From contig NZ_JACHJR010000001.1 in the NCBI RefSeq assembly GCF_014203705.1, positions 7,874,001-7,938,000 of the forward strand: DNA of 64,000 nt. Reading direction: 5' to 3'. The position numbers were made by a program, and so were the translations under genes. This document shows positions 29,625 through 55,177 of the stretch, one piece after another (the first letter of the stretch is position 1; each line of letters begins with the position of its first letter). The DNA comes from Kitasatospora gansuensis. Lineage in GTDB: Bacteria > Actinomycetota > Actinomycetes > Streptomycetales > Streptomycetaceae. The notes below the pieces were generated by a model. It was not told the origin of the DNA, ran no database searches, and saw nothing but the letters and a program-made list of their open reading frames with translations.

Positions 29625-29828
29625 ATGGACGGCGACACCCAGTCCTATGTGGTCGTACTCAACGACGAGGAGCAGTACTCAATCTGGCCCGCCGACCGTG
29701 ACCTGCCGCTGGGCTGGCGCGGCGACGGCGTCAGCGGTTCCAAGGCGGAATGCCTGTCCCACATCGGCGAGGTCTGGACGGACATGCGCCCGTCGAGCCT
29801 TCGCCGGTCCGTGGAGCAAGCCGGTTAG
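29625..29828 (+). CDS. MbtH-like NRPS accessory protein
   Basis: A 67-residue protein with the family signature: YVVVLNDEEQYSIWPADRDL, then GWRGDGVSGSKAECLSHIGE and WTDMRPSSL (conserved Ser, Glu and three Trp residues). MbtH proteins bind NRPS adenylation domains and are often needed for their solubility and activity. GGAGG precedes the ATG with ideal spacing. It is the first gene of the assembly-line operon, 36 bases ahead of the first NRPS, and presumably serves its three adenylation domains. Confidence 0.97.
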   Translation: MDGDTQSYVVVLNDEEQYSIWPADRDLPLGWRGDGVSGSKAECLSHIGEVWTDMRPSSLRRSVEQAG

Positions 29829-29864
29829 CCACCCCCACTCTCAGCAGTGAAGGAATCGTGCGAG

Positions 29865-32800
29865 ATGGTCCTCAATGAATTCCACGCCCGGGTGGCCGAG
29901 GCACCGGATGCCGTCGCGGTGCAGGACGGTGACCTGAGACTGACCTACCGGAGCCTTGCCGTGCACGCGTCCGCGCTGGCAACCGAGCTCACCGAGCGGG
30001 GGGTGGGCCAGGACAGCGTCGTGGCCGTCTACGCCGACCGGTCGGCGGAACTGGTGGTCGGCGAGCTGGCCGTCCTGCTGGCGGGCGCGGCCTACCTGCC
30101 GCTGGACCCGGCCCACCCGTCCGCCCGGATCCGCCAACTGCTGGAGGTCTCCGGCGCCGCCGCGGTCCTCAGCACCGCGCCGCTGGTGTCCGGTGGGGCA
30201 CCGCTCGGCGACGACGTCCTGGTGATCGACCTGACCAAGGAACCGTCCGACGCGACCGTCCTGGCACCGCCCCGGCTGCACGGCGCCGCGCTGGCGTACG
30301 TGATCTACACCTCGGGTTCCACCGGTCAGCCCAAGGGCGTCGCGGTGTCCCACGCGAGCCTGGCCAACCTGATGCACTGGCACCACAAGACCTACGGGAC
30401 GCGGCCGGAGGACCGGTCGACCCTGCTGGCCAGTCCCGGGTTCGACGTGTCCGTCCAGGACATCTGGTTCACCATCACCGCCGGCGCCACGCTGGTGATT
30501 CCGCCCGCCGAGGTACGCACCTCGCCGCCCGCGCTCGCCGCCTGGCTGGCCGACGAGCAGATCACCGTGACCTTCCTGCCGACCCCGCTGGCCGAGGCCG
30601 TCCTCGACGAGACCTGGCCCGCCCACACGGCGCTCCGGTACCTGCACACCGGCGGCTCGGCGATGCAGCGCGGCGTGCCGGACGGGCTGCCGTTCACGGT
30701 GATCAACCTCTACGGGCCGACCGAAGGCACGGTGAAGGTGACGGCCGGCGAGGTGGTGCCGGGCGGACCCGTGCCGCCCCCGATCGGGGAGCCCGTCGGC
30801 GGCGTGCGCTGCTACGTGCTCGACGGGCTCGACCCGGTGCCCGACGGCGAGGCCGGTGAGCTGTACCTGGCCGGCGCGTGCGTGGCACGCGGATACCTGA
30901 ACGACCCGGCGGCCACCGCGGCGGCGTTCGTGCCGGACATCGGCGCCCCCGGGCAGCGGATGTACCGGACCGGCGACAAGGTCCGCCGCCGCCCGGACGG
31001 GGTCTTCGAGTACATCGGCCGGTACGACGACCAGGCCAAGATCCGCGGGTTCCGGATCGAACCCGGCGAGGTCGCCACGGTGCTCAAGCAGCACCCCGGC
31101 GTCCGGGACGCCTTCGTGGCGGTCGAACACTCGGGCCGCCCGGACGCACGCCTGGTCGGCTACGTGGTCACCGAGGTCCCGACGGCCGAGCTGGTCGAGT
31201 TCGTCGCGGGCCGACTGCCCAGCTACATGGTGCCGGCGGCGATGGTCGTGCTGCCCGTGCTGCCGCTGACACCCAACGGCAAGGTCGACCGCGCCGCGCT
31301 GCCCGCTCCCGACCGGACCGCGGCCGGCTTGGCCGACGCCGTGGCGCCCCGTACCCCGACCGAGGAGGCGCTGGCGAGGATCGTGGCCTCGCTGCTCGGC
31401 GGCGCGGAGGTCGGCGTGTACGACGACTTCTTCGCGCTGGGCGGGAACTCCTTGCTGGTCGCGGCGCTGGCGGGCCGGATCGCGGCGGAACTGCACGTCG
31501 GGGTGGGCATCCCCGAGGTGTTCTGCACGCCCACCGTCGCCGGTCTCGCGGAGATCATCGACGAGCGGGCCGCCGGGACGGACGGCGAAGCCGTCGCCCA
31601 GGCGATCGCACCGATCGCGCCGCCGGTACGCCGGGCCGACCGGAACCGACCGATCCCGCTGTCCCTGCCGCAGGAACGGGTCTGGTTCTTCGAGCAGCTG
31701 TCGCCCGGCAACCTGGCCTACAACTTCCAGGCCACCGTGTCCCTGCAGGGCGACGTGAACGTCGACGCCATGCGCGCGACGCTGGACGAGATCGTCCGCA
31801 GGCACGAGATCCTGCGGACCGCCTTCGTCTCGGTCGACGGCGTGGGGTACCAGCGTCCGCTGGCGGAGGCCAAGGCCTCGCTGAAGGTCATCGACGTCCC
31901 GGCCGCGCAGGCCGACGAGGTGGTCGCCGCGCAGCTGCGCGAGCCCTTCGACCTGACCGCGCCGCCCCTGGCCCGCTGGGTCCTGCTGCGGCACGAGGAC
32001 GGGCAGAACACCTTCCTGCACGTGGAGCACCACTTCGTCCACGACGGCTGGTCGCTCTCGGTGTTCCTGTCCGAGTTCCGCGCCCTCTACCCGGCCTTCG
32101 CCGCCGGGCAGCCCTCACCCCTGCCCGACCTGGCCGTCCAGTACGCGGACTACGCGATCTGGCAGCGGGACTGGATGCGCGGCGAGGTGCTGCAGGCCCA
32201 CGTCGACCACTGGACCGGCCTGCTGGCCGGCGCCCCGGACACCCTGGAACTGCCCGCCGACCGGCCGCGGCCGCCGGTGATGACCTTCCGGGGCAGGGCA
32301 CCGCGCATCCTCATCCCGGCCGAGCTGGCCCGCAAGCTGCGAGCCTTCAGCCGCGAGAACCGGGTGTCGCTGTTCTCCACCATGTACGCCGGCTTCACGG
32401 CGCTGCTGCACCGCTACACCGGACAGCACGACATGCTGATCGGGACCGGCGCGGCGAACCGCAACATCCCCGAGCTGGAGCCGCTGCTCGGCATGCTCGT
32501 CAACACCCTGGTCATGCGCACCAAGGTGTCCGCCGACCAGCCGTTCACCGATCTGCTGGCGCAGGTACGGGAGAGCGTCGCCGAGACGCTGGCCTGGTCG
32601 GACACCCCGGTGGACGCGGTGATCGACGCGCTCGACCCGGCCCGTGACCCGTCGCGCACCCCGCTGTTCCAGGTGATGTTCAGCTTCCACGACTCCGGGA
32701 TACCCGACATCGACTTCGGCGGGCTCACCGGCCGGGTCACCGAACGCTCGAACGCCTCGGCCAAGGCCGACCTCAACGTGATCGTGATCCCGCGGGCCGA

Positions 32801-34862
32801 GCAGCGCCTCGGCCGGGCCCCCCGGCCCGAGGACGACGACCTCGCCATGATCTGGGAGCACTCGGCCGACCTGTTCGACGAAGCCACCATGGCACGGATG
32901 ATCACGCACTACCTGACCCTGCTCGAGGACGCGGTGGCCAGGCCGGCAGCGCCGGTGGGGACACTGCGCCTGCTCCCCGAGGCGGAGGCGGAGCAGCTCG
33001 ACCGCTGGTCCCACGGGCCCGCCGCGGTCGAAAGCCGACCGGTGACCGAGCTGATCGCGCGTCAGGTGCAGACCCGGCCGGACGCCGTCGCGGTGCGTTG
33101 GCCGGACGGGCAGCTCAGCTACGCAGAGCTGTGGCAGCGCGCCGGCGGACTGGCCCACCGGCTGCGCGAGTCCGGCATCACCGCCGAGGAACCGGTGGCG
33201 GTGGTCGCCGACCGTTCCGTCGAGCTGGTGGTCGGCGAGCTCGCGGTGCTGATGGCCGGCGGGTGCTACCTGCCCGTGGACCCGAGCTACCCGGCCGAGC
33301 GGATCGCCTTCATCCTGCAGGACGCCGGGGTGAAGAAGACTCTGGTCACGCCCGAGACGCGGCCGCAGCTGCCGGCGTCCACGGCGAGCCTGCAGGTGTT
33401 CGAGCTGGACTCCGCCGGCCCGGACGAGCCGGTCCACGCGGACCAGGTCGCCCCGGAGCGGCTGGCGTACCTCATCTACACCTCGGGATCGACCGGCCGG
33501 CCCAAGGGGGTGGCCCTGGAGCACGGGGGGCTCGCCAACCTGGTCGCCTGGCACCTGGCCGAGTACGCGCTCGAGCCGACGGACCGGACCACGCTGTTCG
33601 CGAGCCCCGGGTTCGACGCGTCGACGTGGGAGATCTGGTCCACCCTCGCGGCGGGCGCCACCCTGAACGTCGTCCCGCCGCAGCTGCGGGCCGCGCCCGC
33701 GGAACTGGTGCGCTGGCTCGGCGCCGAGAAGATCACCGCGGCGTTCCTGCCGACCCCGATCGCCGCGGCCGTCCTGACCGAGCCGTGGCCGGCCGACACC
33801 GCGCTGCGTGCGCTGCTGACCGGTGGCGACGCGCTGCCGGCCGCGCCCGCCGAGGGCTTGCCGTTCCGGTTGTTCAACCACTACGGACCGACGGAGAACA
33901 CCGTCGTGGCGACGGCGGGCCTGGTCCCGCCGGACCCGGCGGGACTGCGCCCGGCCATCGGCAGGCCGATCAGCGGGATCCAGGCCCACGTGCTGGACGC
34001 CGAAGGGCAGCCCGTGCCCACCGGCGTGCGTGGCGAGCTGTTCCTCGGCGGTACGCAGGTGGCCCGCGGCTACGTGAACCGCTCGACGCTCACCGCGGAG
34101 AGCTTTCGCTCCGATCCGTTCGCCGGCCAGCCCGGCGCACGCCTGTACCGGACCGGTGACCTGGTCCGCTGGCGTCCCGACGGGCAGCTGGAGTTCCTCG
34201 GCCGCGCGGACGAGCAGGTGAAGATCCGGGGATTCCGGATCGAGCCCGGAGAGGTCGCGGCAACGCTCCGGGAGCACCCGGACGTACGGGACGCCGTGGT
34301 CGTCGTCCGCACGGCCGCAGAAGGCGCCTCGCTGGTGGCGTACGCCTGTGCGGACGGCCCGAGCGAGAACCTCCCCGAGGAGAAGCTGCTGGCGTTCCTG
34401 GGGGACCGGCTGCCCGCGTACATGCTGCCGGACAAGGTCCTGGTGCTGGCCGCCCTGCCACTCACCGCGCACGGCAAGGTGGACCACGCCGCGCTGGCCG
34501 CCCTGACGCCGAGCACCCAGGCCGAACCCGAGGCCGACCAGGCGCCGCGGACACCGACGGAGGAGCGCGTCGCGCAGCTCGCCTCGGCGTTGCTGCACGA
34601 CCAGCCGGTGGGGCGCGCGGACGACTTCTTCCGCGCCGGTGGCCACTCCCTGTTGGCAGCCCGGCTGGTGGCCCAGGTGAACGAGGCCTTCGGCGTCCAG
34701 GTGCCGATGGCGACGTTCCTCCAGCGGCCCACCGTGGCGAGCCTGGCGGACGCCGTGACCCTCGCGACGACAGGAGCGACGGCAGGGCCCGGTCCGATCA
34801 GGCCGCGTACCCGCCGTGCGGCCGTGCGGCCGCTCGATCAGTCCAGTGAGGTGCAGCAGTGA
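29865..34862 (+). CDS. NRPS, loading plus one extension module (A-PCP-C-A-PCP)
   Basis: About 1665 residues. A1 (1-495): A3 [11 protein letters not shown] near 148, A4 FDVSVQDIW near 193, A5 NLYGPTE near 281, A10 NGKVDR near 471. PCP1 Ser in LGGNSLL near 527. C (595-1035) with intact HHFVHDG near 722. A2 (1050-1560): A4 FDASTWEIW near 1249, A5 NHYGPTE near 1341. PCP2 Ser in AGGHSLL near 1595. It starts with an A domain and no C, so it is the chain starter. Reading pocket residues by alignment to GrsA by eye gives DVQFHGLVK(K) for A1 (no match I know) and DAWFLGHVV(K) for A2, one change from a known Leu code. ATG 29865 with AAGGA is chosen; GTG 29847 lacks a ribosome site. Its stop overlaps the next start (GTGA). 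Confidence 0.95.
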
Positions 34863-37800
34863 GTGGAGCGATCGAACCAGAGGTCGGGGACGAGGACAGT
34901 TCGGCTCCGCTGTCGTACGCGCAGCAGCGGCTGTGGTTCCTCGACCAGCTGCAGCCGGGCAGCTCGGTCTACAACGTCCCGCTCGGCTACGACATCACCG
35001 GCCCGTTGGACCCCACGGCGCTCGAACGGGCGCTGACCGAGGTCGTGCGGCGCCACGAGATCCTGCGGACCGCCTTCCGGTCGACCGGTGGGACGCCGCA
35101 CCAGGTGGTCCTGCCGCCCGCCCCAGTGTCCATCCCCGTCGTCGACCTGACCGCACCCGGTCGCTCGGCGGACGAGGTGGCGCGGCTCACGGACGAGGAA
35201 GCCGGTGTCCCGTTCGACCTGGTGGCCGGCCGGGTCATCCGGGCCCGTCTGCTGCGCCTCGGTGAGCAGCAGCACCGGCTGCTGCTCACCGTGCACCACC
35301 TCGCCTGTGACGGCGCGTCGGTCGGGACGCTCGGCCGGGAGCTCGAGGTCCAGTACCTGGCCGCGCTGCGCGGCCAGGACCGGCCCGAGCCCGAACTGCC
35401 CATGCAGTACGCCGACTTCGCCGACTGGCAGCAGAACACCCTGGCCGGGCCCGAGCTCGACCGGCTGCTGGCGTACTGGACGGACAGCCTGGCCGGCCTG
35501 CCCGCCCAGCAGCTGCCCACCGACCACGCCCGCCCGCCGGTGCAGAGCTACCGTGGCGCCGCGCTCACGTTCGAGCTGCCGTCGGCCTCGGTCCAGCAGC
35601 TGGAGGAGCTGGGCAGGTCGGAAGGCGTCACGCTCTACAGCGTCCTGCTCGCCGCCTTCTCGGTGCTGCTACGGGCGCACGTCGGCCAGGACGAGGTCGT
35701 GGTCGGAACCCCGGTGTCCGGGCGGGAGCGGCCCGAACTGGCCGGTCTCATCGGGTTCTTCACCAACACCCTGGTGCTCCGCTGCGACCTCGGGTCAGGC
35801 CCGACGTTCCGTCAGCTGATCCAGCGGCTGTGGACGGAGGTCAAGGGAGCGCTGGCCCACCAGGACCTGCCGTTCGAGAAGCTGGTCGAAGAGCTGCACC
35901 CCGACCGTGACCTGGCCCAGAACCCGTTGTTCCAGGTGCTGTTCAGCTACCGGTACGAAGAAGAGGGAGCGGGCCTCCGCCTCGACGGCTGCCAGGTGCA
36001 GCCGGTGCTGGGCGACACCGGGGCGGCGCGGTTCGACCTGACGCTGAGTCTGACCCGGACCCCGGCCGGGGTGCGAGGCCGGCTCGAGTACAACACGGAC
36101 CTGTTCGAGGGCACGACCGCCGAGCGGATCGCCGAGCGGTACGTCCAGGTGGTGACCGCCGCCGCGCAGGCCCCGGACCGGCCCGTCGACGAGCTGGCCG
36201 TGCTGCCGGCCGGCGAACTCGCCACCTTGGCCGACTGGCAGACCGGTGCCGAGGCCGGGACCGACGACGCCTTGGTGCACCAGCTGTTCGCGCAGCGGGT
36301 GGCCGCGACACCCGACGCGGTCGCCGTGGTCGCCGCCGACACCACCTTGACCTATCGCGAACTCGACCGGCTCGCCGACCGGTTCGCGGGTCAGCTGCGG
36401 CAGCTCGGGGTGGCGCCCGACGAGCCGGTCGGCGTCCACCTCGGCCGCACCTCCCTGCTGATGGTCACCCTGCTGGGGATCCTCAAGGCGGGCGCGGCAT
36501 ATCTCCCGCTGGACCCCGGCTACCCGCGCGATCGACTGGCGTTCATGGTCGGCGACGCCGGCGTGCGGCTGGTCGTGGCGGACTCCAGGTCCGCCGCGGC
36601 CGCCGGCCGGCTCGGCGCCGGTCAGGTCGTGGTGCCCGACCTGGCTGGGGAGCCGGACGCTTCGCCGTCGGCGGTCACCGCCGACAACCTGGCGTACGTG
36701 ATCTACACGTCCGGGTCCACCGGACTGCCCAAGGGCGTCATGGTCACCCACCGGAACGTGGTCAACCTGTTCGCCGGGATGGACGACGTCTTCGGTGCCG
36801 ACGAGCCCAGCACCTGGCTCGCGGTGACCAGCGTCTCCTTCGACATCTCCGTGGTCGAGCTGCTGTGGGCGCTGATGCACGGTCACCGGATCGTGCTGCG
36901 CGGCGAACCGCCGCTGCCGTCGGCCTCGGCCGCCGCGGAGTCGGCGGCGGTGGCCGAGGCGCGTGCCCGCCCCATCGACTTCAGCCTGCTCTACTTCGGC
37001 AGCGACGCGGAAGCCAGCTCCGAGGACCGCTACCGGCTGCTGCTCGACGGCGCGAAGTTCGCCGACCGCAACGGCTTCACGGCCGTGTGGACTCCCGAGC
37101 GGCACTTCCACCAGTTCGGCGGGCTGTACCCGAACCCCTCGGTGATGGCGGCGGCCGTCGCGGCCGTCACCGAGCGGGTCCAGGTGCGCGCGGGCAGCGT
37201 GGTGCTGCCGTTGCACGACCCGCTGCGGGTGGCCGAGGAGTGGTCCGTGGTGGACAACATCTCGGCCGGCCGGGCCGGCATCTCCCTCGCGTCCGGGTGG
37301 CACGCCAACGACTTCGCGCTCGCACCGGACCGGTACGAGAAGCGCAAGCAGCTGATGATGGACGGCCTCGCGGAGGTCCGGAAGCTGTGGCGCGGCGAGA
37401 AGGTGTCGCGGCGCAACGGCGTCGGCGCCGAGGTCGAGGTCGGGGTGTTCCCCCGTCCCGTCCAGCCGGAGCTGCCGGTGTGGCTGACCAGCGCCAAGCA
37501 TCCGGAGACCTTCCGGATGGCGGGCGAGGCCGGCACCGGGGTGCTCACCCACCTCCTCGGGCACAGCCTGGAGGAGCTGGCGGAGAAGATCGCGCTGTAC
37601 CGCAGGACCTGGCGCGAGCACGGGCACGGACCCGGGGACGGCCACGTGGCGGTGATGGTCCACACCTTCGTCGGTCAGGATCTCGACGAGGTGCGGGAAC
37701 TGGTCCGGGAGCCGATGAGCCGGTACCTGGAGACCTCCTTCGACCTGATCGCCTCGCTCGGCGCCACCACCGGCAGCGCCGAGGACTTCAGGGCGTTGCC

Positions 37801-39232
37801 GCCCGGGGAACTGCGGGAGTTGGTGGACCGGGCGTTCGAGCGGTTCTTCGCCACCGCGAGCCTGCTCGGCACGCCGCAGGTCTGCGCCGACATGGTGGAC
37901 CGGATGAAGGCCGCCGGCGTCGACGAGGTCGCCTGCCTGATCGACTTCGGGGTCGAGGAGAAGGCGGCACTGGACGCCCTGACCCACCTGACCACCGTTC
38001 GGGAGATCAGCGCCGAGCGCAGGGAAGCCGTACTGGCCAAGGCCGAGGAGCCGATCGCCGAACAGCTGCGGGCGCACGCCGTGACGCACCTGCAGTGCAC
38101 GCCGTCACTGGCCCGCGCACTGCTGGCGGACCAGGACGCGCGGGCCGAACTGCCGCGGCTCAGCCGGTTGTTGGTGGGCGGTGAGGCGTTCCCCGCCGAC
38201 CTGGCCCGCGAGCTAGCCGACGCCGTCGGCGGCACGGTGCACAACATGTACGGGCCGACCGAGGCCGCGGTCTGGGCGACCACCTCGCAGATCGCGCCCG
38301 GTGGCGGCCCGGTGTCCATCGGGCGGCCGTTGGCGAACGTACGGGCCTACGTGGTCGACCGCGATGCGCGGCTCTGCCCGACGGGCGTACCCGGAGAGCT
38401 GTGGCTCGGCGGGGGCGGCGTGGTCCGCGGCTACCTCAACCGCACCGAGGTGACCGCCGAACGCTTCCAGCCCGACCCGTTCGCCGACCGGCCGGGAGCC
38501 AGGGTCTACCGTACGGGCGACCTGGCCCGCTGGGGGACCGGCGGCGCACTCGAGTTCCTCGGCCGCATCGACGACCAGGTGAAGCTGCACGGTCACCGGA
38601 TCGAGCTCGGCGAGATCGAGACGGCGCTCGCCGAACACGCGGGCGTCCGGTCGGCGGTCGCGGTCATCCGGGGCACCGGCGCGGAACAGCGGATCATCGG
38701 CCACTACGTGCCGGCGACCGACCGGGCGACCACCGGTGCCGAGCTGCGCGCCTTCCTCGCCACGCGGTTGCCCGGCTACATGGTGCCCAGCGCCGTGCAC
38801 CCGATCGACGCGCTGCCGTTGACCCCGAACGGCAAGGTCGACCGCAGGGCGCTGCCCGACCGGTCGGAGGCGCGGCCCGAGGGCACGACGGCGTACGCGC
38901 CGCCGACGAACGCGACCGAGCGGCTGGTCACCGAGGTGTGGCGAGAGGTCCTCGGCGTCGACCGGGTGGGCCTGGACGACAGCTTCTTCGACCTCGGCGG
39001 GAACTCGCTGCTGGTGGTGGTGGCCAGGGCCCGGCTGATCGAACACCGCGACAGCGGGCTCTCGTTGGTGGACATGTTCCGCTATCCGTCCGCACGGGCC
39101 CTGGCCGAGGCGATGGACCGCAAGCCGGACGAAGGGCCCGACGAGGCGGTCGGCGCGGGTGCCGCACGGGGCGCCGCTCGGCGCGTCGCCGGACAGGCTG
39201 CCGCACGGCGTGCGGGCAGGACAGGGGTGTGA
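34859..39232 (+). CDS. NRPS module C-A-PCP with luciferase-like monooxygenase inserted in the A domain
   Basis: A 1457-residue single module. C domain (15-440) with HHLACDG near 146. A domain begins near 474, with A3 [11 protein letters not shown] near 616 and A4 FDISV near 661; then an FMN-dependent luciferase-like monooxygenase (about 706-1045; hallmarks [11 protein letters not shown] and [12 protein letters not shown]) interrupts it, and the A domain resumes with A5 NMYGPTE near 1131, A7 YRTGD near 1217, A10 NGKVDR near 1324. PCP Ser in LGGNSLL near 1383. No TE or R domain. Pocket residues read by eye give DIVQLGMVW(K), conservatively close to the Gly code DILQLGLIWK. This recalls myxothiazol MtaG, where an embedded oxygenase acts on Gly to release an amide. 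GTG start overlaps the previous stop. Confidence 0.93.
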
Positions 39233-42592: not shown

Positions 42593-42882
42593 CGGAACAG
42601 CAGACCGCAAAGGCGCCCTTCGACGTGGACGCCGTCATCGACGAGATCACGAAGTTCGTGGCCGGGCAGACCCGGACCACCCCCGAGGCGGATCAGGACC
42701 TCTTCGCCACCGGGGTCGCCAACTCCATGATCGCCATGCAGCTGGTCGTGTTCCTGGAGCAGACCTACGCCGTGACGGTCTCCGGCCCTGACCTGCAGCT
42801 GTCCAACTTCTTCACGGTCAAGAGCATGGCCGCGCTGGTCGGCCGACTCCAGGCAGAGTCTGCCGCCGACAGCGATGTCTGA
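42589..42882 (+). CDS. fkbJ: Discrete acyl carrier protein, FkbJ type
   Basis: A 97-residue carrier protein with the phosphopantetheine Ser in TGVANSMIAMQ (near residue 46), where the usual DSL is NSM, as in extender-unit ACPs. It is the carrier on which FkbH loads 1,3-bisphosphoglycerate-derived glyceryl units, later oxidised to hydroxymalonyl and methylated. With no ACP in the KS protein, it may also be the carrier used directly in elongation. Overlaps both neighbours. Confidence 0.93.
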   Translation: MTEQQTAKAPFDVDAVIDEITKFVAGQTRTTPEADQDLFATGVANSMIAMQLVVFLEQTYAVTVSGPDLQLSNFFTVKSMAALVGRLQAESAADSDV

Positions 42883-46781: not shown

Positions 46782-48068
46782 TCATGGACGGTCGCCGACG
46801 ACCAGCGGGGCCAGATCGCGGCGGCTGGTCACCCCGAGCTTCTGGTAGGTGCGGCCCAGGGTGTTGTCGACGGTGCGGGCGGACAGCCCCAGCCGGTGCC
46901 CGATGGCGGGGCTGGTGAATCCGTTGGCGGCCAGCAGCGCCACGTCCCGCTCACGGCCGGTGAGTTCGGCCAGCGGGGCGGTGAGCTGCAACAGCGGGGT
47001 GGTCGCGTTTCGGCACGCGATGGCGCTGGGGGGCGTGGAAGTGTGTCGCAGCGCGGCCGCGACGGTGGCGGTCTCCGCGGCGAGCAGCTCCATCCCGAGT
47101 TCGGTGAACTCCGCCGTGGCGACGTCCAGGGCTCCGGGATCGGAGCGGGCCAACGCGGCCGCGGCGCCGGCCATGGCCGGTACGACCGGCCCCGGCACCA
47201 GGTCGGCCAGCGCGGCGAGGCGATGCCGTACGGCGTTGGGATTGCCGAGGCGGGCCACGTCGTAGCTGGCCGTGGCCTCGACGGCGTACTGGCCCAGGGC
47301 CATGGCGATGTCGGCCGCGGCGAGGGCCTGTCTGGCGGCGAGCGTGGTGTCCCCACCGGCCGCCGTGGTCCACGCCTGGCTCAGGGTCGACCACGGGAGG
47401 AACTGGCGACTCTCGGGTGCCCGGTCGGCGAGCTGCCGGGTGCCGGCCTGATCGCCGAACACGGCGAGCTCGGCCAGTCGCGGGGCCAGTCTGAGGCACG
47501 AGTTGCCGCCGCCGAACAGCAGCGAGGCGGTCTCCGCCTCGGCGATGGCGTTGGCCACGCTGGCGACCTGGCCGCGCAGGGCCAACCAGCTGCCGGCCAC
47601 CGCGATGTTTCCGGCGGCCACTTCGTCCCGGTACCCGTTCTCGGCTATCCGGCACGCGTGCCGCACCTGACCGGCCATCAGCAACGCGAAACAGTGCGCG
47701 TAGCCGATCTCGGCGAACCAGGGCTGGCCCGGGTCGGGCCGGTCAACGGCCGCCGACGCCTGGTCCGGCCAGCCGGCCGGTCGGGCCGCGACCACCACGG
47801 TGGTCACCGCCGGCCGGATCGCCCCGTCGGGCACCTGCCGGTCCCGTAACTCTCCCTGGCGTGCGGCCGGTGCCGCGTGGGTACAGCCGTCCAGCAGCAG
47901 TAGGCCGGCCCAGGGTGCCTCGGTCACCGGACCGCCGAATTCGGCCGGCCCCCGGTGCGGTATCGCCGCCGCGGTCACTGCCCAGTGGGTGCAGCGTGCT
48001 GTCGGGGCGGTACCTAATCGGTGTAAGGCCGATTCGTTCGTCGGCCTTTTCTCGGCAATTAACTGCAC
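46782..48068 (-). CDS. LuxR-family pathway regulator with early TTA codons
   Basis: A 428-residue protein with a C-terminal LuxR helix-turn-helix (LTGRERDVALLAANGFTSPA then HRLGLSARTVDNTLGRTYQK) and an Ala-rich helical, TPR-like remainder resembling the C-terminal half of LAL regulators; the AAA ATPase part of typical 900-residue LAL proteins is absent. Start taken as GTG 48066-48068 because AGAGGGGGG stands nine bases upstream. Codons 3, 15 and 18 are TTA, so translation should depend on the bldA tRNA. If the real start were a downstream GTG (codon 30), the TTAs would fall in the leader, but that GTG lacks a ribosome site. It probably activates the cluster. Confidence 0.88.
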   Translation of the reverse strand: MQLIAEKRPTNESALHRLGTAPTARCTHWAVTAAAIPHRGPAEFGGPVTEAPWAGLLLLDGCTHAAPAARQGELRDRQVPDGAIRPAVTTVVVAARPAGWPDQASAAVDRPDPGQPWFAEIGYAHCFALLMAGQVRHACRIAENGYRDEVAAGNIAVAGSWLALRGQVASVANAIAEAETASLLFGGGNSCLRLAPRLAELAVFGDQAGTRQLADRAPESRQFLPWSTLSQAWTTAAGGDTTLAARQALAAADIAMALGQYAVEATASYDVARLGNPNAVRHRLAALADLVPGPVVPAMAGAAAALARSDPGALDVATAEFTELGMELLAAETATVAAALRHTSTPPSAIACRNATTPLLQLTAPLAELTGRERDVALLAANGFTSPAIGHRLGLSARTVDNTLGRTYQKLGVTSRRDLAPLVVGDRP

Positions 48069-48193: not shown

Positions 48194-48865
48194 CTAGGCG
48201 TCGATCGCCTTTTCGATGGGGGTCCCGCCGCCGACCACCACGTAGATGCGGCCGGCGGTTTCGGGCCGGTCGATCAGCGCCACGAGCACGGCGGCGACGT
48301 CTTCCCTGGCGACCTGGTCGAACCTGGCGTGCCGGGGCGCGACCCTGTTCCCGACGGTGAGTTCGACGGTGCCGTCGCCGGCTCCGTCGGTGAGCACGCC
48401 GGGCCGCAGGACCGTCCAGTCGAGCTGGGTCCGGGCGAAGATGTGCTGTTCGGCGGCGTGCTTGGCCCGCAGGTAGACGGCGTACCCGTCACCGATGCCG
48501 CGCTCCTCGGCACAGCCCACGTTGATGGAGCTGACGTGCAAGAACCGTTGCACACCGGCCTGTTCGGCCGCGTCCATGACGAGCACGACGGCGGCCCGGT
48601 CCATCTTGTCCCGGCGTGCGGAGGTGGCGCTGTTGCCCGAGCCGGCCGAGAAGACGACGGCGTCCGCGCCGACCACGGCCGCGGCCACCTGATCGACCGT
48701 CGCGTGCTCGAGGTCGAGCACGACGGCCTCACCACCCGCCGCCCTGATGTCGTCGACGTGGCGGGGGTTGCGCACGATGCCCACGACGGAGTCGCCACGC
48801 TTGGCGAGTTGCCGGGTCAACCGCAGGGCGATCTTGCCGTGGCCGCCGGCGATGACAATCTTCAT
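48194..48865 (-). CDS. NAD(P)-binding oxidoreductase, atypical SDR (NmrA/YwnB-like)
   Basis: A 223-residue Rossmann protein starting KIVIAGGHGKIALRLTRQLA, with DAVVFSAGSG, VSSINVG and the YLRAKHAAEQ segment in which Tyr-x-x-x-Lys is altered to YLRAK. Members of this atypical extended SDR group (SDR_a5) act as reductases or as redox sensors. AAGGG precedes the ATG. Being inside the cluster it could reduce the beta-keto function formed by the KS protein, which has no KR domain, but nothing in the sequence proves this. Confidence 0.85.
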   Translation of the reverse strand: MKIVIAGGHGKIALRLTRQLAKRGDSVVGIVRNPRHVDDIRAAGGEAVVLDLEHATVDQVAAAVVGADAVVFSAGSGNSATSARRDKMDRAAVVLVMDAAEQAGVQRFLHVSSINVGCAEERGIGDGYAVYLRAKHAAEQHIFARTQLDWTVLRPGVLTDGAGDGTVELTVGNRVAPRHARFDQVAREDVAAVLVALIDRPETAGRIYVVVGGGTPIEKAIDA

Positions 48866-49040: not shown

Positions 49041-49186
49041 GTCATCCGAATGTTTCACGAGTCAAGCATCGGTCGGACCAATTGGTCAATCGTGCCAGGA
49101 GCACTGTGGCGACCACAGGTTCGTCACCCGAATGTTTACGAGTCAAGCATCGGTCACACCTATCGGTCAATCGTGCCAGGAGCACT
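49041..49186. repeat. Tandem duplication, two copies of a 65-bp sequence 82 bp apart
   Basis: Copy 1 (49041-49105) and copy 2 (49123-49186) share long identical blocks, GAATGTTT, ACGAGTCAAGCATCGGTC and GGTCAATCGTGCCAGGAGCA, with about seven substitutions and one single-base gap. Copy 2 covers the last codons and stop of the ArsR-like gene, so copy 1 looks like a duplicate of that gene's 3' end. Copy 1 contains a perfect palindrome GACCAATTGGTC (49076-49087), whose counterpart in copy 2 has decayed. Confidence 0.85.
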
Positions 49187-49702
49187 CTCCCGGGGGTCCG
49201 GGTCGAGCGGGGGCCGTGCCGCGAGTGACCACAGGTAGCTCAGCGGCTCGCCGTCGGGCTCGTCGGTGTACTCGGCGATCAGGTCCTCGATCCGGCGGTG
49301 GAGCGACTCCACGGACTCGGGCCGCAGCCGCAGGACGCCGCGCTTGGCGCCACGGCCGGAGTCCTTGCCGGCGGCGATCAGTTCGGTGCGGTGGGCGCCG
49401 AGCACGGCCAGGTCGACCTGCTGGGCCAGGCCGGCGTCGTCGAGCGGGATGGTCAGGCCCCGGGTGCGTGCGGTGGCCCGATAGGGCCGCTGCAGTGCGC
49501 CGTGCTCACCGGTGTTGACGGGTTCGGCGACCAGGAAGTCCGTCTTCACCAGGGCGCGGACGTGACGCAGGGTGGTCGCCGGGGCGAGGTCGAGCTCGAC
49601 CGACAGCTCCTTGTTGGTGAACGCACGGTCCAGGCACAGCCGCAGGATGCGCCAGCGGATCGGGTGCCCGAGTGCTTTGAGATCTTCGATCGTCGCTTCC
49701 AC
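49160..49702 (-). CDS. ArsR-like winged-helix transcriptional regulator
   Basis: About 180 residues. The N-terminal winged helix is clear: IEDLKALGHPIRWRILRLCL, FTNKELSVEL and PATTLRHVRALVKTDFLV. The C-terminal half (from about residue 80) is helical and of unknown ligand class, without the Cys clusters of metal sensors. Start uncertain: GTG 49700-49702 is used, GTG 49730-49732 is possible. It is divergent from the M20 peptidase gene, with an inverted repeat in the shared promoter region, so it probably represses the peptidase/exporter arm. Confidence 0.82.
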   Translation of the reverse strand: MEATIEDLKALGHPIRWRILRLCLDRAFTNKELSVELDLAPATTLRHVRALVKTDFLVAEPVNTGEHGALQRPYRATARTRGLTIPLDDAGLAQQVDLAVLGAHRTELIAAGKDSGRGAKRGVLRLRPESVESLHRRIEDLIAEYTDEPDGEPLSYLWSLAARPPLDPDPRESAPGTIDR

Positions 49703-49749
49703 AACCGTGACTGTACCTTGCCAAGTCGTCACCGGTTTGGTTGAATACC

Positions 49750-49784: not shown

Positions 49785-51110
49785 GTGATCGAGCAGCTCA
49801 GGGGCTGGGTTGGCGCCCATGACCTGGACCGCGAGCTGGCGGACTGGGTCTCCCGGCCGAGCGTGAGCCGGACCGGCGAGGGCATGGTCGAGGCCGCAGC
49901 CCACGGTCTTCGGCTGTTACGTGCCTCGGGTCTGGAGGCGCGCGAAGTCGAGACCGGTGGCTGGCCCGCGCTGGTGGGGACGGCGGACGGGCCCGGGCTG
50001 CACGTGCTGATCTACGGTCACTACGACGTGCAGCCGGCCGGGCCGCTCGAGCTGTGGACCACGCCACCGTTCGTACCGTCGATCCGTGACGGCCGGATGT
50101 ACGGGCGTGGTACGGGCGACAACAAGGGGCAACATCTCGCGCAACTGCTCGGGTTACGTGCCCTGCGGGACCTGACCGGCGGATTTCCCTGCCGGGTCAC
50201 GGTGTTGCTCGACGGCGAGGAAGAGATCGGCAGCCCCAACCTGGCGGTGGCGTTACGCCAGGTCGGTCAGCCCGATCTGGTGATCTGGAGCGACGGGCCG
50301 GTGCACGACTCGGGCCGGGCGACCGTGGTCCTCGGGGTACGCGGAATCCTGATGTTCGAACTGCGTGCGCGCGGCGCGAACCGGCCGCTGCACTCGGGGA
50401 ACTGGGGCGGAGTCGCACCGAATCCGGCGTGGACGCTGGTCCAGCTGCTGGCCACCATGCGGTCGGCGGACGGCACCGTGACCGTGCCCGGATTCGCCGA
50501 CGACGTCCCGCCGTTGACCGATGGTCAGCGGGCCGCGCTGGCGGATCTTCCGGTGGACGTGGCCGGGACGCTCGAAGCGATCGGGGCGGCCGGCCTGGAG
50601 CCGCCGATCGGGCTGGGATTCCACGAACGCCTGGCCCTGCCCACGCTGACCGTGAACTCGTTGAGCTGCGAGGACTCCGGCGACCACCGCGCGGTGATCC
50701 CCGACGTCGCCATCGCCAGATGCGAGGCGCGGCTGGTCGACGGTCAGACGCCGGACCAGGTCGCGGACGCCATCCGGCGGCACGTCGCGAAGTACGCGCC
50801 CGAGGTCGAGTTCGTGCCCGGCGCGGCGATGTCACCGTCCGTGACGTTACCCGAGACCCCTTATACGGCCACGATTTTCCGGGCGGTGGAGGAAGTACTC
50901 GGCCACCGGCCGCTGCTGGTTCCCTCGCTGGGCGGAAGCCTGCCGATCGCCGCGCTCAGCGAGGTGTTCTCCTGCCCCTGTTACGGCGTGCCGCTGGCGA
51001 ACGTCGACGAGGCCAACCACGCGGCCGACGAGAACCTCGACCTCGACCTGTTCCGCCGTGGAGTCGTCGCCGCGGCGACGATCCAGCTCGCACTGGCGGC
51101 GCTCTCATGA
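49785..51110 (+). CDS. M20-family metallopeptidase (dipeptidase-like), bldA-dependent
   Basis: About 441 residues with the dinuclear zinc site of M20 enzymes: LIYGHYDVQP (His and first catalytic Asp), YGRGTGDNKGQ, DGEEEIGSPN (Glu general base and ligand) and later ligands in SDGP and in the C-terminal LANVDEANHAADEN. A central dimerisation domain is present. Such enzymes cleave dipeptides, amides or acyl groups from amino acids. Four TTA codons (49917, 50154, 50253, 50847; codons 45, 124, 157, 355) predict strong dependence on bldA. GTG 49785 follows GGGGGG. Overlaps the S9 peptidase gene (ATGA). In the cluster it may remove a protecting residue from the product or degrade it for self-protection. 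Confidence 0.9.
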   Translation: MIEQLRGWVGAHDLDRELADWVSRPSVSRTGEGMVEAAAHGLRLLRASGLEAREVETGGWPALVGTADGPGLHVLIYGHYDVQPAGPLELWTTPPFVPSIRDGRMYGRGTGDNKGQHLAQLLGLRALRDLTGGFPCRVTVLLDGEEEIGSPNLAVALRQVGQPDLVIWSDGPVHDSGRATVVLGVRGILMFELRARGANRPLHSGNWGGVAPNPAWTLVQLLATMRSADGTVTVPGFADDVPPLTDGQRAALADLPVDVAGTLEAIGAAGLEPPIGLGFHERLALPTLTVNSLSCEDSGDHRAVIPDVAIARCEARLVDGQTPDQVADAIRRHVAKYAPEVEFVPGAAMSPSVTLPETPYTATIFRAVEEVLGHRPLLVPSLGGSLPIAALSEVFSCPCYGVPLANVDEANHAADENLDLDLFRRGVVAAATIQLALAALS

Positions 51111-52846
51111 CCGTTTGGGGCGCCTGGCCCGCGAAGGAGGGCTTCGCGTACGTCAGCGACGAGTCCGGCCGGCCGCAGCCCTGGTTCCAGACCTGGGCGG
51201 GGGAGCGCCGGATGTTCCCGGTCGACGGCGCGGTCACCCGGCTGGCGTGGCGGCCCGACGAGAGCCGCCTCCTGGTGGTGGTGGACGTGACCGGCGTCCA
51301 GGACTACCGGCTGGCCGAACTCGACCCGGTCACCGGCGAGTTGGAGTGGTTGGCGGCGGAGCCCGGGGTCAGGCGCGAGATCGGCGTGCCGTACTCGAGC
51401 GCGAGCCAGCCGTACAGCCCGGACGGCCGCCTGCTCGCGTACGCGACCAGCGCGCGCGACGTCACCTGCCTCGACGTCTACGTGCGGGACCTGACGACCG
51501 GCGCGTCCAGGATGGTCCTGCAGGGCGACGACCGGTACCTGCCGATATGTTTCTCACCGGACTCCAGGTACCTGCTCGTGCTGAAGTTCCATCAGAACAC
51601 CGACCAGGACCTGTTCGCCTGTGATCTCTCCACCGGCCGGACGCTGCACCTCACCCCGCACGAGGGCCCGGCGAAGTACCAGCCGGGCGGGTGGACCGAG
51701 GACGGGATCTACCTGTGCACCACCGAGGGCCGTGACTTCCTCGGTGTCGCCCTGCTCGTCCCCGGCCGGCCGTTGCAGTGGATCGCCACGCCGGACACCG
51801 ACGTGGAGAACGTGATGGTGGGTCCGCAGGTCGTCTGGGCCGTGCCCGAGGACCAGCGCACGCTGCTGTGCACGTCGGAGACCACGGTCGAACTGCCCGG
51901 ATTCGCCTCCCAGCCGTTCGGCTACGACGGCTTCGTGCCGCGGTTCGCCGGGGACCGGCTGCTGGCCCAGGTCGGCGCCGGCGACCGGGCGGTCGAGTTC
52001 TTCCTGGTGGACCCGGTATCCGGCGACTTAGAGCAACTCACCGACTTCAGCGCCGAGTTGCCGGACGACCTGGTCGCGCCGGAAACGGTCTGGTTCACCG
52101 GTGCGGACGGGCTGGAGATATCCGGCCTGCTGTACCGCCCGCGTTCCACGGCCGGTTCGGTCCCCGCGGTGCTGACCATCCACGGTGGTCCGGAGTGGGC
52201 CGCGCTGCCGGTCCACGACCCGGTGATCCAGCGGATGGTGCGAGCCGGAATGGCCGTGCTGGCACCGAACGTGCGCGGGTCGACCGGGCGAGGGCTGGCC
52301 TACCAGCGGCTGATCTACCGCGACTGGGGACGCGGTGACCTGGCCGACTTCGAAGCCGCCGCACGGTTCCTGCGCAGCCTGGACTGGGTGGACGGCGACC
52401 GGCTCGGTGTCCACGGGATGTCCTACGGCGGGTTCGCGGCGCTCAGTTGCCTGACGAGGCTGCCGGACCACTGGCGGGCCGGGGTCGCGATCTGCGGGCC
52501 GGTGGACCTCGAAGCGGACGTCCGGGCCCTGCCGCCGACCTGGAGCCGACGGGTCGTGGAGTGGATCGGCGACGTGGACAACCCGGCGGACCTGGCGCGG
52601 CTGAGGGCGGCGAGTCCGCTGACCCACGCGGCGGACATCCAGGCGCCGCTGCTGCTGGCCCATGCGGAAGGTGACGCCACGGTGGTCATCGGCGGCACCG
52701 AGCAGCTGTACCGGACGCTGACCGAACTGGGCAAGACCGTGCGGTTCATCCGCCTCTCCCGCGGTCATCTTCCGGACGACCGGGACGAGCGGGACGAGCT
52801 CGACGCCGCCGTCGTGCAGTGGTTCTGCGACTACCTCAAGCCGTGA
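51107..52846 (+). CDS. S9-family serine peptidase (acylaminoacyl/dipeptidyl peptidase-like)
   Basis: A 579-residue two-domain peptidase. The N-terminal half is a beta-propeller (repeated DGRLLAYATSARD, SPDSRYLLVLKF type blades); the C-terminal alpha/beta hydrolase has the nucleophile in GVHGMSYGGF, Asp in LAHAEGDATVV and His in LSRGHLPDD. There is no signal peptide, so it acts in the cytoplasm. One TTA codon (52028-52030, codon 308). It is translationally coupled to the M20 gene. S9 enzymes of this kind release N-acyl amino acids or dipeptides; in this position, maturation or inactivation of the peptide product is plausible. Confidence 0.9.
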   Translation: MTVWGAWPAKEGFAYVSDESGRPQPWFQTWAGERRMFPVDGAVTRLAWRPDESRLLVVVDVTGVQDYRLAELDPVTGELEWLAAEPGVRREIGVPYSSASQPYSPDGRLLAYATSARDVTCLDVYVRDLTTGASRMVLQGDDRYLPICFSPDSRYLLVLKFHQNTDQDLFACDLSTGRTLHLTPHEGPAKYQPGGWTEDGIYLCTTEGRDFLGVALLVPGRPLQWIATPDTDVENVMVGPQVVWAVPEDQRTLLCTSETTVELPGFASQPFGYDGFVPRFAGDRLLAQVGAGDRAVEFFLVDPVSGDLEQLTDFSAELPDDLVAPETVWFTGADGLEISGLLYRPRSTAGSVPAVLTIHGGPEWAALPVHDPVIQRMVRAGMAVLAPNVRGSTGRGLAYQRLIYRDWGRGDLADFEAAARFLRSLDWVDGDRLGVHGMSYGGFAALSCLTRLPDHWRAGVAICGPVDLEADVRALPPTWSRRVVEWIGDVDNPADLARLRAASPLTHAADIQAPLLLAHAEGDATVVIGGTEQLYRTLTELGKTVRFIRLSRGHLPDDRDERDELDAAVVQWFCDYLKP

Positions 52847-52892
52847 GCGGCTCCCGGCTTGTTTCCCGATTCCCCTTACCGAAGGCATCCCT

Positions 52893-52931: not shown

Positions 52932-52969
52932 CAAGTACTCGAAAAACCCGGAAGGGACAGGCACAGATA

Positions 52970-54448
52970 ATGCCTTCTGCAGTCGCCGGCGCGGAAGCGC
53001 CACCCCGCCGACGCCTCGGCTTGATCCTGGCACTGCTGGCTTTCGCCCAGTGCATCTACGCAGTTGACTACAGCATCGTTTTCGTCGCATTGCCCGAGAT
53101 CCGTACCGGTCTCGGCTTCTCCGCCCAGACCCTCCAGTGGGTCGTCAGCGGCTATGCCGTCGCGTTCGGCGGCTTCCTGCTGCTCGGCGGCCGTGCGGCC
53201 GACCTGTTCGGACGCCGCCGGATGTTCACCTTTGGCCTGTTCCTGTACGCGGTCTCCTCGCTTGCCGGAGCGCTCGCGGGTGACCCGACGACCTTGATCA
53301 TCGCGCGTGCGGTGCAGGGTATCGGTGGCGCCTTCCTCGCCCCCGCAACGCTTTCACTGGTCACCACGACCTTCGCCGAAGGCCCTGAGCGCAACCGTGC
53401 GCTGGCGATCTGGGGCGGTGCCGGCGGTAGCGGCATGATCCTCGGCTCGCTGCTCGGTGGCGTGCTGACGGGTGCGTTCGGCTGGGCGTCGATCTTCTTC
53501 GCCAACGTCCCGCTCGCCGGTGGCGCCATGCTGCTCGCGTTCGCCGTCATCCCGAAGGACACCGAACTGGGGGCCTCCGGGCGCAAGTTCGACCTGCCCG
53601 GCGCGCTGACTGCGACCGTGGGTTCGACGCTGCTGGTGTTCACCCTGGTCCAGGCCCCGGTGTCGGGTTGGACTTCGCCGACGATCCTGATCACCGCGGC
53701 CATCGCGGTGGCCACGCTCGCCGCGTTCCTCACCATCGAGGGCCGCGGCCGTGACCCGCTGCTGCCGCTCCGGCTGTTCCGCAACCGCAACCTGAGCACC
53801 GGTACCGTCGTCACCTTCGTCTTCATGGGGACGTTCGGCGCGCTGCCGTACTTCTTCACCGTCTACTTCCAGACCGTGCACGGCTACTCCGCGACGAAGA
53901 GCGGTCTCGCCTTCCTGCTGCCGTGTGTCGGGGTGCTCATCGGCAACCTGTCCGGCGGGAAGCTGGCCACCCGCTTCGGGGTGCGTGCCACGTTGATCGG
54001 CGCGCTCCTGATGGGTCTCGTCGGTACCATCGCCTTCGCCTTCTCCGTCTCGGAGAGCGGTTCGTACCTGCAGCTGGTGCCGGGCGTGCTCATCCTCAGC
54101 CTCGGTCAGGGCACCATCTTCACCGCGATGTACGCGGCGGCGACCACCGGGGTCGCGGCCGAGGACCAGGGCATCGCCTCGGGTGTCGCGGCGACCGGCC
54201 AGCAGGTCGGTGCCGCGGTCGGCCTCGCCGTCCTGGTGGCGGTCGCCAACTCCGGTCACGAAGGACTGACCGGTGAGGCGTTGCGCGTCGCCACCGCCGA
54301 TGGTGTGCGCTCCGCGATGTGGGCCACCGTGGCCGGCATCGTGCTGATCGTGCTGGTGGTGCTGAACTTCAGGCGGAGCGCAGCCGTTCCGGTTGTCGAG
54401 GCGTCGGAGGAGTCCGAGGAGCAGGACGGCGTGAAGTCTGCTGTCTGA
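52970..54448 (+). CDS. MFS exporter, DHA2/EmrB-like (probable product export and resistance)
   Basis: A 492-residue protein with 14 hydrophobic segments. Motif A is RAADLFGRRRMF between TM2 and TM3, TM4 has IIARAVQGIGGAFLAPATLS, and TM5 carries the antiporter motif GGAGGSGMILGSLLGGVL. The C-terminal tail is acidic (EASEESEEQDG). It would pump a small molecule out using the proton gradient. A short leader peptide precedes it; a perfect 16-bp terminator hairpin follows. Within the cluster it is the only transporter, so it is the likely self-resistance exporter. The start ATG 52970 lacks an ideal ribosome site (AGG nine bases upstream). Confidence 0.92.
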   Translation: MPSAVAGAEAPPRRRLGLILALLAFAQCIYAVDYSIVFVALPEIRTGLGFSAQTLQWVVSGYAVAFGGFLLLGGRAADLFGRRRMFTFGLFLYAVSSLAGALAGDPTTLIIARAVQGIGGAFLAPATLSLVTTTFAEGPERNRALAIWGGAGGSGMILGSLLGGVLTGAFGWASIFFANVPLAGGAMLLAFAVIPKDTELGASGRKFDLPGALTATVGSTLLVFTLVQAPVSGWTSPTILITAAIAVATLAAFLTIEGRGRDPLLPLRLFRNRNLSTGTVVTFVFMGTFGALPYFFTVYFQTVHGYSATKSGLAFLLPCVGVLIGNLSGGKLATRFGVRATLIGALLMGLVGTIAFAFSVSESGSYLQLVPGVLILSLGQGTIFTAMYAAATTGVAAEDQGIASGVAATGQQVGAAVGLAVLVAVANSGHEGLTGEALRVATADGVRSAMWATVAGIVLIVLVVLNFRRSAAVPVVEASEESEEQDGVKSAV

Positions 54449-54467
54449 GCTTCTGATCTGAATGAAT

Positions 54468-54517
54468 AAAAGGTGATTCCACCTCGTGTTCAGCGCGCGC
54501 GGGTGGAATCACCTTTT
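54468..54517 (+). terminator. Terminator after the exporter gene
   Basis: Perfect 16-bp stem AAAAGGTGATTCCACC (54468-54483) with GGTGGAATCACCTTTT (54502-54517), 18-base loop, A and T runs at the ends so it could work in both directions. Begins 19 bases after the stop codon. Confidence 0.9.
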
Positions 54518-54592
54518 GTTCATGTGGAGTCGATTGCACCGCTGTCACGCACACACCCGCAGGTCCCCGACACAGAAGGAGGCGCAATCCCA

Positions 54593-55177
54593 GTGCACCA
54601 GATCGTGAAGGTGGTCGGTGTCGGCGGTTCGAGCCGGGCCGGATCAAGCGCCGAGCAGGCCCTGCGGGTGGTACTGGACGCGGCGCAACGACGCGGCGCG
54701 TCCGTGCAGTTGATAGGGGGCCCCGAACTGGCCATGCCGCTGTACGACCCCCGGAACGGCGCCAGCACACCGCAGGCCCGACAGTTGCTGTCCGCCATAG
54801 CCGGCGCCGACGGCCTCGTGCTCGCCAGCCCCGCCTACCACGGCGGGATCTCCGGCCTGGTGAAGAACGCCCTGGACTATGTCGAGGAACTCAACAAGGA
54901 CATCCGGCCCTACTTCAGCGAACGGCCGGTCGGCTGCGTGGCGGTCGCCGACGGTTGGCAGGGCGCCGTTTCCACCCTGGCCGCACTCCGCGACGTGACC
55001 CATGCACTGCGCGGCTGGCCCACATCGCTGGGCGCCGCGATCAACACGTCAGCGGCACGCTTCTCACCCGCCGGAGTATGCGAGGACACCCGTGTCCAAG
55101 GACAGCTGGAGGAAATAGCGGCGCAGGTCGTCGAGTTCGCCAGGATGCGCGTCGCGGCTGCTGCAGCTTCTCGGTGA
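54593..55177 (+). CDS. NADPH-dependent FMN reductase
   Basis: A 194-residue flavodoxin-fold enzyme: phosphate-binding GGSSRAGSSAEQ near the N-terminus and SPAYHGGISGLVKNALDYVEE, the signature of NADPH-dependent FMN reductases (SsuE/chromate reductase family). It would supply reduced FMN. GTG 54593 follows GGAGG. It stands just beyond the terminator of the exporter gene and is a natural partner for the FMN-dependent oxygenase embedded in the NRPS at 34859-39232. That pairing is inference, because general flavin reductases also exist. Confidence 0.88.
   Translation: MHQIVKVVGVGGSSRAGSSAEQALRVVLDAAQRRGASVQLIGGPELAMPLYDPRNGASTPQARQLLSAIAGADGLVLASPAYHGGISGLVKNALDYVEELNKDIRPYFSERPVGCVAVADGWQGAVSTLAALRDVTHALRGWPTSLGAAINTSAARFSPAGVCEDTRVQGQLEEIAAQVVEFARMRVAAAAASR

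Follow-up and report, generated by a model that had tools for sequence, protein, structure and literature searches.

A 64,000-nucleotide stretch of the Kitasatospora gansuensis genome (contig NZ_JACHJR010000001.1, positions 7,874,001 to 7,938,000; hereafter the window) carries a hybrid nonribosomal peptide synthetase (NRPS) and polyketide synthase (PKS) gene cluster at positions 29625-55177 (25.5 kb). As delimited by open reading frame, Pfam and NCBIfam scans, it begins with an MbtH gene and ends with a gene for a flavin mononucleotide (FMN) reductase. Its ketosynthase (KS) protein carries the remnant of an acyltransferase (AT) and stands beside a set of genes for a polyketide extender that would be built on its own acyl carrier protein (ACP). 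The features are listed below, with adenylation, thiolation and condensation domains abbreviated A, T and C.

29625-29828, forward strand: MbtH-like protein (PF03621, 6.9e-20)
29847-34862, forward strand: NRPS1, A1-T1-C-A2-T2 (Pfam)
34859-39232, forward strand: NRPS2, C-A3(monooxygenase)-T3 (Pfam and NCBIfam)
36980-38002, forward strand: luciferase-like monooxygenase inside A3 (TIGR04020, 519 bits, cut-off 244)
39282-41753, forward strand: KS with pseudo-AT and conserved post-AT linker, no cis ACP (Pfam, motifs, AlphaFold model)
40869-41609, forward strand: pseudo-AT (alignment of 11 clusters and five sister ATs, substitution rates)
41738-42592, forward strand: 3-hydroxyacyl-CoA dehydrogenase, start placed by eye, presumably FkbK-like (PF02737/PF00725)
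42589-42882, forward strand: discrete ACP, phosphopantetheine Ser in the motif ANSM (PF00550)
42875-44011, forward strand: acyl-CoA dehydrogenase, presumably FkbI-like (PF00441 and others)
44008-45108, forward strand: FkbH-like HAD protein, which we take to form glyceryl-ACP (TIGR01686, 364 bits, cut-off 147)
45248-45910, reverse strand: O-methyltransferase (Methyltransf_3), presumably of the FkbG/MdmC type (PF01596, 2.1e-67; PDB 5lhm, 1.4e-70)
45919-46737, reverse strand: second S-adenosylmethionine-dependent methyltransferase (Pfam)
46782-48068, reverse strand: LuxR-type regulator (PF00196; matched in 11/11 clusters)
48194-48865, reverse strand: NmrA-like NAD(P)-binding protein (PF13460; matched in 11/11 clusters)
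49160-49732, reverse strand: winged-helix (ArsR-like) regulator (weak HTH_20/HTH_24 matches; 85-91% identity in 10 others)
49785-51110, forward strand: M20 dipeptidase-type peptidase, start placed by eye (PF01546)
51107-52846, forward strand: S9 prolyl-oligopeptidase-family peptidase (PF00326; 80-90% identity in 10/10 others)
52970-54448, forward strand: MFS exporter (PF07690; matched in 11/11 clusters)
54473-55177, forward strand: NADPH-dependent FMN reductase (PF03358; matched in 7/10 others)

These scans agree with the parts list of a first-pass annotation made from the sequence alone, which had named MbtH, an A-PCP-C-A-PCP and a C-A/oxygenase-PCP protein (PCP, peptidyl carrier protein, is T above), a KS protein, two peptidases and an exporter. 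It had also counted three regulators, of which the LuxR-type and the winged-helix genes are clear inside the block, while the third, at 48194-48865, turns out to be the NmrA-like protein. Two genes beyond its list, the second methyltransferase and the FMN reductase, belong to the set as well. The second methyltransferase was found at 89-100% identity in seven of 297 genomes of the family, the window's own included, with the next listed matches at 34-45%, and a search under stricter settings, covering 391 genomes of the order, gave one further match, whose position agrees with the Streptomyces sp. LBL copy; by these matches it is specific to this cluster family. PDB sequence searches with both methyltransferases and the M20 protein give assignments at the family level only. 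In Pfam scans of the 17 genes at 29625-55177, no intact AT, thioesterase (TE) or reductase domain was found.

The set from MbtH to the MFS exporter is present in 10 other genomes, collinear or in rearranged blocks and with differing neighbours, giving 11 clusters in soil bacteria of the genera Kitasatospora, Streptomyces, Amycolatopsis and Actinokineospora; because it recurs in this way, the cluster goes beyond a chance grouping of genes. With the KS protein as query, 394 genomes of the family yielded seven matches at 75-100% identity, including the window's own, and the next at 58%. A wider contig scan gave 18 loci, nine close (71-86%) and nine distant (34-48%). Five of the close loci are copies from the family search and the other four lie in Streptomyces gardneri, Streptomyces sp. 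LBL, Amycolatopsis oliviviridis and Actinokineospora spheciospongiae; at the nine distant loci, neither the methoxymalonyl set nor the right arm of the cluster was found in the stretches covered. Window genes were also compared with 40 kb around five of six copies and with the whole contig (28.7 kb) of the sixth. The shared block in these six runs from MbtH through the FMN reductase, and the flanking genes are unshared at E 1e-8 except for paralogue-like matches (MFS-like at 31-32% in 6/6, one at 46% in G137 and, in G143, a fragment covering 10% of a GH20 protein). Synteny ends at 29625 in the six copies whose upstream flanks are covered and just beyond the FMN reductase in seven other copies carrying that gene, and nothing in the other cluster stretches matches the helix-turn-helix gene at 55279. 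MbtH itself is found in eight of the 11 stretches; the other three (L037, L039 and L040) start inside the cluster, and a separate comparison finds MbtH there. Positions 29625-55177 are thus confirmed as one real, sharply bounded unit.

The right arm is rearranged in the Amycolatopsis and Actinokineospora copies, with the NmrA, winged-helix, M20, S9 and MFS genes still adjoining the core. A quick tree of KS proteins, from which tblastn pieces shorter than 350 residues were omitted, puts S. gardneri on one branch with the window and K. aureofaciens, and Streptomyces sp. LBL on another with the remaining Kitasatospora copies. Because these two branches reach Shimodaira-Hasegawa-like approximate likelihood ratio test (SH-aLRT) values of only 91 and 84, the grouping suggests, at most, horizontal transfer of the cluster between genera. 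Upstream of the unit and outside it, at 24085-28523 of the window, lie genes for a beta-helix/ricin-lectin protein and a GH20 protein with lectin domains (Pfam).

The KS keeps its catalytic Cys, His and His in the 10 clusters read. In an alignment with the five sister ATs described below, the AT has its catalytic Ser replaced by Gly and the preceding His replaced by Asp, Glu or Arg in 11/11 clusters, and the column of its catalytic His is deleted in 11/11, whereas both Ser and His are kept in 5/5 sister ATs. An Asp of the pseudo-AT stands two positions beyond the lost His, and the distance between the flanking AT motifs is 71 residues in the window as opposed to 148 in the five sister ATs. The median pairwise ratio of nonsynonymous to synonymous substitution rates (dN/dS) across the 11 clusters, by the Nei-Gojobori method over 55 non-independent pairs, is 0.147 for the KS, 0.145 for the post-AT linker and 0.453 for the linker between KS and AT; within the pseudo-AT it is 0.414 for the N-terminal half and 0.834 for the C-terminal half. 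Pairs with dS outside 0.05-2 were dropped, which affected one of the 55 for that C-terminal half and none for the other regions of the KS protein. Values for NRPS1 were set aside because this gene is lacking from the stretches of S. gardneri and LBL, where paralogues were matched instead, and those for MbtH because the gene lies in eight stretches only. On these values the C-terminal half of the pseudo-AT drifts almost neutrally. Read from its residues, the AT has been inactivated twice over, by the change of Ser to Gly and by the deletion of the His-bearing stretch; the first-pass annotation had proposed a dead AT for the window alone, and the decay is lineage-wide rather than a local oddity. 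In two Kitasatospora copies, L043 (Kpho30) and L045 (KCB), a further ~40-45 aligned residues are deleted from the remnant, so the decay seems to be ongoing.

An AlphaFold model of the KS protein has a mean predicted local distance difference test score (pLDDT) of 79 (19 sequences), with the AT remnant block at ~74-96. A fold search with this model places OzmQ KS1 (Z 48.4), OzmN KS2 (48.3) and ClbI KS-AT (47.5) at the top, tied; such a list names known KS and KS-AT folds and is silent on activity. OzmQ and OzmN belong to the oxazolomycin AT-less PKS, which also uses methoxymalonyl-ACP and is a large trans-AT line with discrete ATs, as opposed to none within the present cluster.

The five sister ATs come from a related cluster family found in S. 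actinomycinicus (G128:C52) and in four other genomes, at G057:C12, G084:C1, G181:C1 and G625:C69 (loci L100/L101, L102/L103, L104/L105, L106/L107 and L110). In the KS tree the 11 clusters form one clade, within a clade of 16 rows that includes the sister family (SH-aLRT 100), and S. actinomycinicus carries clusters of both kinds. Homologues of NRPS1, NRPS2 (with its monooxygenase) and the KS lie side by side in 5/5 sister stretches, together with MbtH and FMN reductase, and no match to the window's methoxymalonyl set, M20 or S9 was found in any of the five. The AT motif GHSLG is kept in 5/5. A domain scan of L110 reads A-T-C-A-T, C-A-monooxygenase-T and KS-AT-ACP-thioester reductase, and an accessory scan of L102 gives an amidohydrolase, an FMN reductase, a carboxyltransferase and an AurF-like protein. 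The sister codes are DAFT(V/I)AAVW in 5/5 (aromatic-like), DA(F/Y)F(I/L/M)GGTF in the 4/5 that are readable (Val-like) and Gly before the KS in 5/5; as far as was found in the open-access literature, this family is also orphan. The comparison suggests that the gain of the methoxymalonyl set was accompanied by loss or replacement of AT, cis-ACP and reductase, although we infer the direction of change, as the AT remnant alone survives.

A methoxymalonyl-ACP set consists of FkbH, a discrete ACP, an acyl-CoA dehydrogenase, a 3-hydroxyacyl dehydrogenase and an O-methyltransferase. All five members of this FkbG-K set, which the first-pass annotation had called complete, are matched in 11/11 clusters, and the discrete ACP keeps its phosphopantetheine Ser in all of them. 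That annotation had allowed either a methoxymalonyl or a hydroxymalonyl unit; one such extender still fits, and methoxymalonyl is the likelier because the O-methyltransferase accompanies the FkbH set in 11/11 clusters. The AT that would be expected to recognise an ACP-bound extender lacks, within the cluster, its Ser and its His-bearing stretch (11/11). In the zwittermicin system the hydroxymalonyl extender is likewise built on a discrete ACP and a prodrug peptidase logic is shared, but a functional AT, ZmaA-AT, transfers the unit from its ACP onto a second ACP (PMC4207774; this and the other papers are cited from the parts of their text covered), whereas here the AT is dead and there is no second ACP. 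Because the cluster is without both, it is simplest to suppose that the extender is taken up by the KS while still bound to the carrier on which it was built. The AT, the usual loader of such a unit, probably decayed because the unit arrives already attached to a carrier, and the architecture with its AT bypass is likely on this sequence evidence. At L108/L109 (G148), in a different NRPS-PKS, an FkbH set lies beside a KS whose AT is, by eye, almost wholly deleted, possibly another case in which an AT was lost in connection with an extender carried on an ACP.

The peptide part can be read from the A domains, whose codes, obtained by alignment, are DVQFHGLVK for A1 (Pro-like), DAWFLGHVV for A2 (Leu-like) and DIVQLGMVW for A3 (Gly). 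All three are identical in 10/10 clusters read, these being the window and nine others, with G137 outside that set. In the survey of PMC12283262, DAWFLGNVVK is the commonest Leu code, DILQLGMIWK is read in each of four Gly domains that carry a monooxygenase insertion, and Val236 and Gln239 are common to 59/71 proline domains. As the codes resemble the published Leu and Gly-plus-monooxygenase codes, the assignments of A2 to Leu and A3 to Gly appear well supported, in keeping with the short peptide of a Leu-like residue followed by Gly that was first proposed. The starter, then given as unknown, can be sharpened to proline-like by its Val236 and Gln239; this residue, X, is probably Pro or another cyclic imino acid, and the order is likely X-Leu-Gly.

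The monooxygenase is inserted in A3 between the A4 motif (FDISVV) and the A5 motif (YGPTE), and its nearest solved relative by sequence is PuwE (6ket, 1.3e-123). TIGR04020 matches at E <=1e-80 occur in 28/394 genomes drawn from the class, all 28 above the cut-off. In the myxothiazol and melithiazol synthases a flavin-dependent monooxygenase occupies the same A4-A5 position and the hydroxyglycine is cleaved to a terminal amide, while the solanimycin line has the domain inserted between A8 and A9 and retains the hydroxyglycine (PMC10204066). Here a KS follows the monooxygenase module in 11/11 clusters and in the sister family, and for this reason retention of the peptide chain after Gly hydroxylation is likelier than cleavage. 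The FMN reductase is the likely supply of FMNH2 for this enzyme.

Taken together, the domain content, the codes, the motifs kept in KS, ACP and peptidases, and the loss of the AT are established at the level of sequence, and they lead us to favour, by a modest measure, an orphan NRPS-PKS line in which X-Leu-(alpha-hydroxy)Gly would be extended once by ACP-borne methoxymalonate in an AT-free manner, trimmed by peptidases and probably cyclised. We infer every chemical step and the final ring as follows. NRPS1 would assemble X-Leu, and NRPS2 would add Gly, whose alpha-carbon the embedded monooxygenase would hydroxylate, using FMNH2 supplied by the FMN reductase of the cluster. FkbH, the two dehydrogenases and the O-methyltransferase would build methoxymalonyl on the discrete ACP, and the KS would condense the peptide directly with the ACP-bound unit, so that the carrier of the extender would also act as the module's acceptor ACP. 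An AT and a cis-ACP would thereby become dispensable, and the AT may have decayed to a remnant between the KS and the post-AT linker. As there is no thioesterase or reductase, release would probably occur by cyclisation, or by loss of CO2 following hydrolysis. The cytosolic S9 and M20 peptidases could then take X or X-Leu off the product, the second methyltransferase could cap it and the MFS protein could export it. If X alone were removed, the Leu amine so exposed could cyclise onto the ketone derived from Gly, and dehydration at the alpha-hydroxy carbon would then yield the aromatic ring of a 3-isobutyl pyrazinone with no extra oxidation; in coralinone, an N-terminal amine and a PKS-made ketone give a pyrazinone with an oxidation step (PMC10979478). 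By this analogy a pyrazinone is our favoured guess for the product, though unproven. The most specific version, in which the extender-building ACP is also the chain-accepting carrier, the AT was lost lineage-wide, and the line feeds a hydroxyglycine-primed, peptidase-triggered ring closure (e.g., to 3-isobutyl-5-(methoxymethyl)pyrazinone or its O-methyl ether), is tentative and rather unlikely to hold as a whole.

Several observations weigh against this pathway. The A4-A5 insertion is the position of the myxothiazol and melithiazol enzymes MtaG and MelG, and cleavage of their kind would break the chain ahead of the KS. Besides the pseudo-AT no AT gene was found in the block by Pfam, the genome beyond 29625-55177 not having been searched for a trans-acting AT, and the dN/dS pairs on which the drift of the pseudo-AT is judged are not independent. 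The KS protein of G148 has its own cis carrier domain and reductase, so its extender ACP need not be the acceptor and it lends only partial support to an AT bypass. A1 carries His299, Leu322 and Lys331, which are unusual for Pro and make another imino acid possible for X, and the string DVQF is absent from the covered main text of PMC12283262, its Pro-code tables aside. Finally, no match to the FMN reductase was found in the stretches from Amycolatopsis and Actinokineospora, though the whole right arm is covered there; the K. phosalacinea B-16228 contig ends before the position of this gene.

The peptidases are held under the same constraint as the core (dN/dS 0.138 for M20 and 0.218 for S9). 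The M20 metal-site motifs and the S9 Ser and His motifs are kept in 11/11 clusters, with the S9 Asp motif varying around a conserved Asp. The nearest solved structures of the M20 protein are the metallo-carboxypeptidase Sso-CP2 and cytosolic dipeptidases (PDB). Elsewhere in the Streptomyces sp. LBL genome, a fragment (L062, G397:C1:430787-431044) is 84% identical to the first 86 M20 residues. It is plausible from these families that S9 removes X or X-Leu and that M20 splits or trims peptides. An alternative possibility is self-protection, in which the two enzymes would break the product down in the cytosol or represent resistant versions of the target on which it acts. They lack a signal peptide by eye, keep their catalytic motifs and travel with an exporter, all of which is equally compatible with self-protection and with trimming. 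Both are missing from the sister stretches (5/5), however, and the amidohydrolase of L102 would fit a shared trimming role equally. We regard self-protection as a possible but doubtful explanation.

The mode of release may also differ from that of the proposed pathway. The glycyl amide nitrogen could attack the methoxy-beta-keto thioester to give an N-acyl 3-methoxytetramate, with the second methyltransferase O-methylating the ring and the peptidases freeing its nitrogen. An N-acyl Gly followed by a single PKS extension, the lack of a TE or reductase domain and the presence of two methyltransferases would suit such a release, but no dedicated cyclase was found in the cluster and the alpha-hydroxyl would be left without a clear role, making a tetramate rather unlikely.

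It is about as unlikely that the product is an already described metabolite. The 11 carrier strains fall in four genera and some have named type-strain records, but no published counterpart of the cluster was found in the open-access literature, MIBiG not having been compared; within that scope the absence of a nameable pathway, noted at first, stands, and it is only in this sense that the product is called orphan. The coralinone synthase CorA resembles the cluster in its A-T-C-A-T order followed by one KS extension, its dipeptidyl beta-keto acid and its clustered protease, and differs in having A-T-C-A-T-KS-AT-ACP-TE in one gene and using malonyl-CoA, with no Gly-monooxygenase module, extra residue or methoxymalonyl in the account covered (PMC10979478). 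Where CorA joins two amino acids ahead of a cis KS-AT-ACP-TE, the present cluster has three A domains, a dead AT, no cis ACP and no TE. The ichizinone cluster shares MbtH, MFS, an FMN luciferase-like monooxygenase, an NRPS with an AT-less KS-ACP protein and a pyrazinone product, but its monooxygenase is a separate protein, its NRPS has four modules, a TE and a cyclase are present, and there is no FkbH set in the part of the gene table covered (PMC12144821).

Prodrug lines such as those of zwittermicin and colibactin begin with an N-terminal starter C domain and acyl-D-Asn and use a membrane S12-type peptidase, whereas NRPS1 begins with an A domain and the peptidases are M20 and S9. Pathways of the epoxyketone, caerulomycin, bestatin and prodigiosin types were considered and dropped, as they differ in their parts or in the order of these.

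The weakest of the alternatives, and an improbable one, is that the hydroxyglycine is cleaved as by MtaG, releasing X-Leu-NH2 and leaving a glyoxylyl thioester to be discarded or used by the KS: NRPS2 does share with MtaG and MelG a Gly A domain with its monooxygenase between A4 and A5, but their modules proceed to a TE and amide release (PMC10204066), whereas Pfam finds no TE domain after T3 and the module is followed by a KS and a dedicated extender set in 11/11 clusters, and by a KS in the sister family too.

Being compact, conserved and found in strains of four genera, the cluster lends itself to direct tests of its product and of what its monooxygenase does. It also amounts to a natural experiment in the removal of an AT from a modular PKS, with the motifs intact in the sister family and dead and drifting here, where the extender would come in on a carrier of its own. 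If the proposed pathway is confirmed, rare units such as methoxymalonate would be installable without AT engineering.

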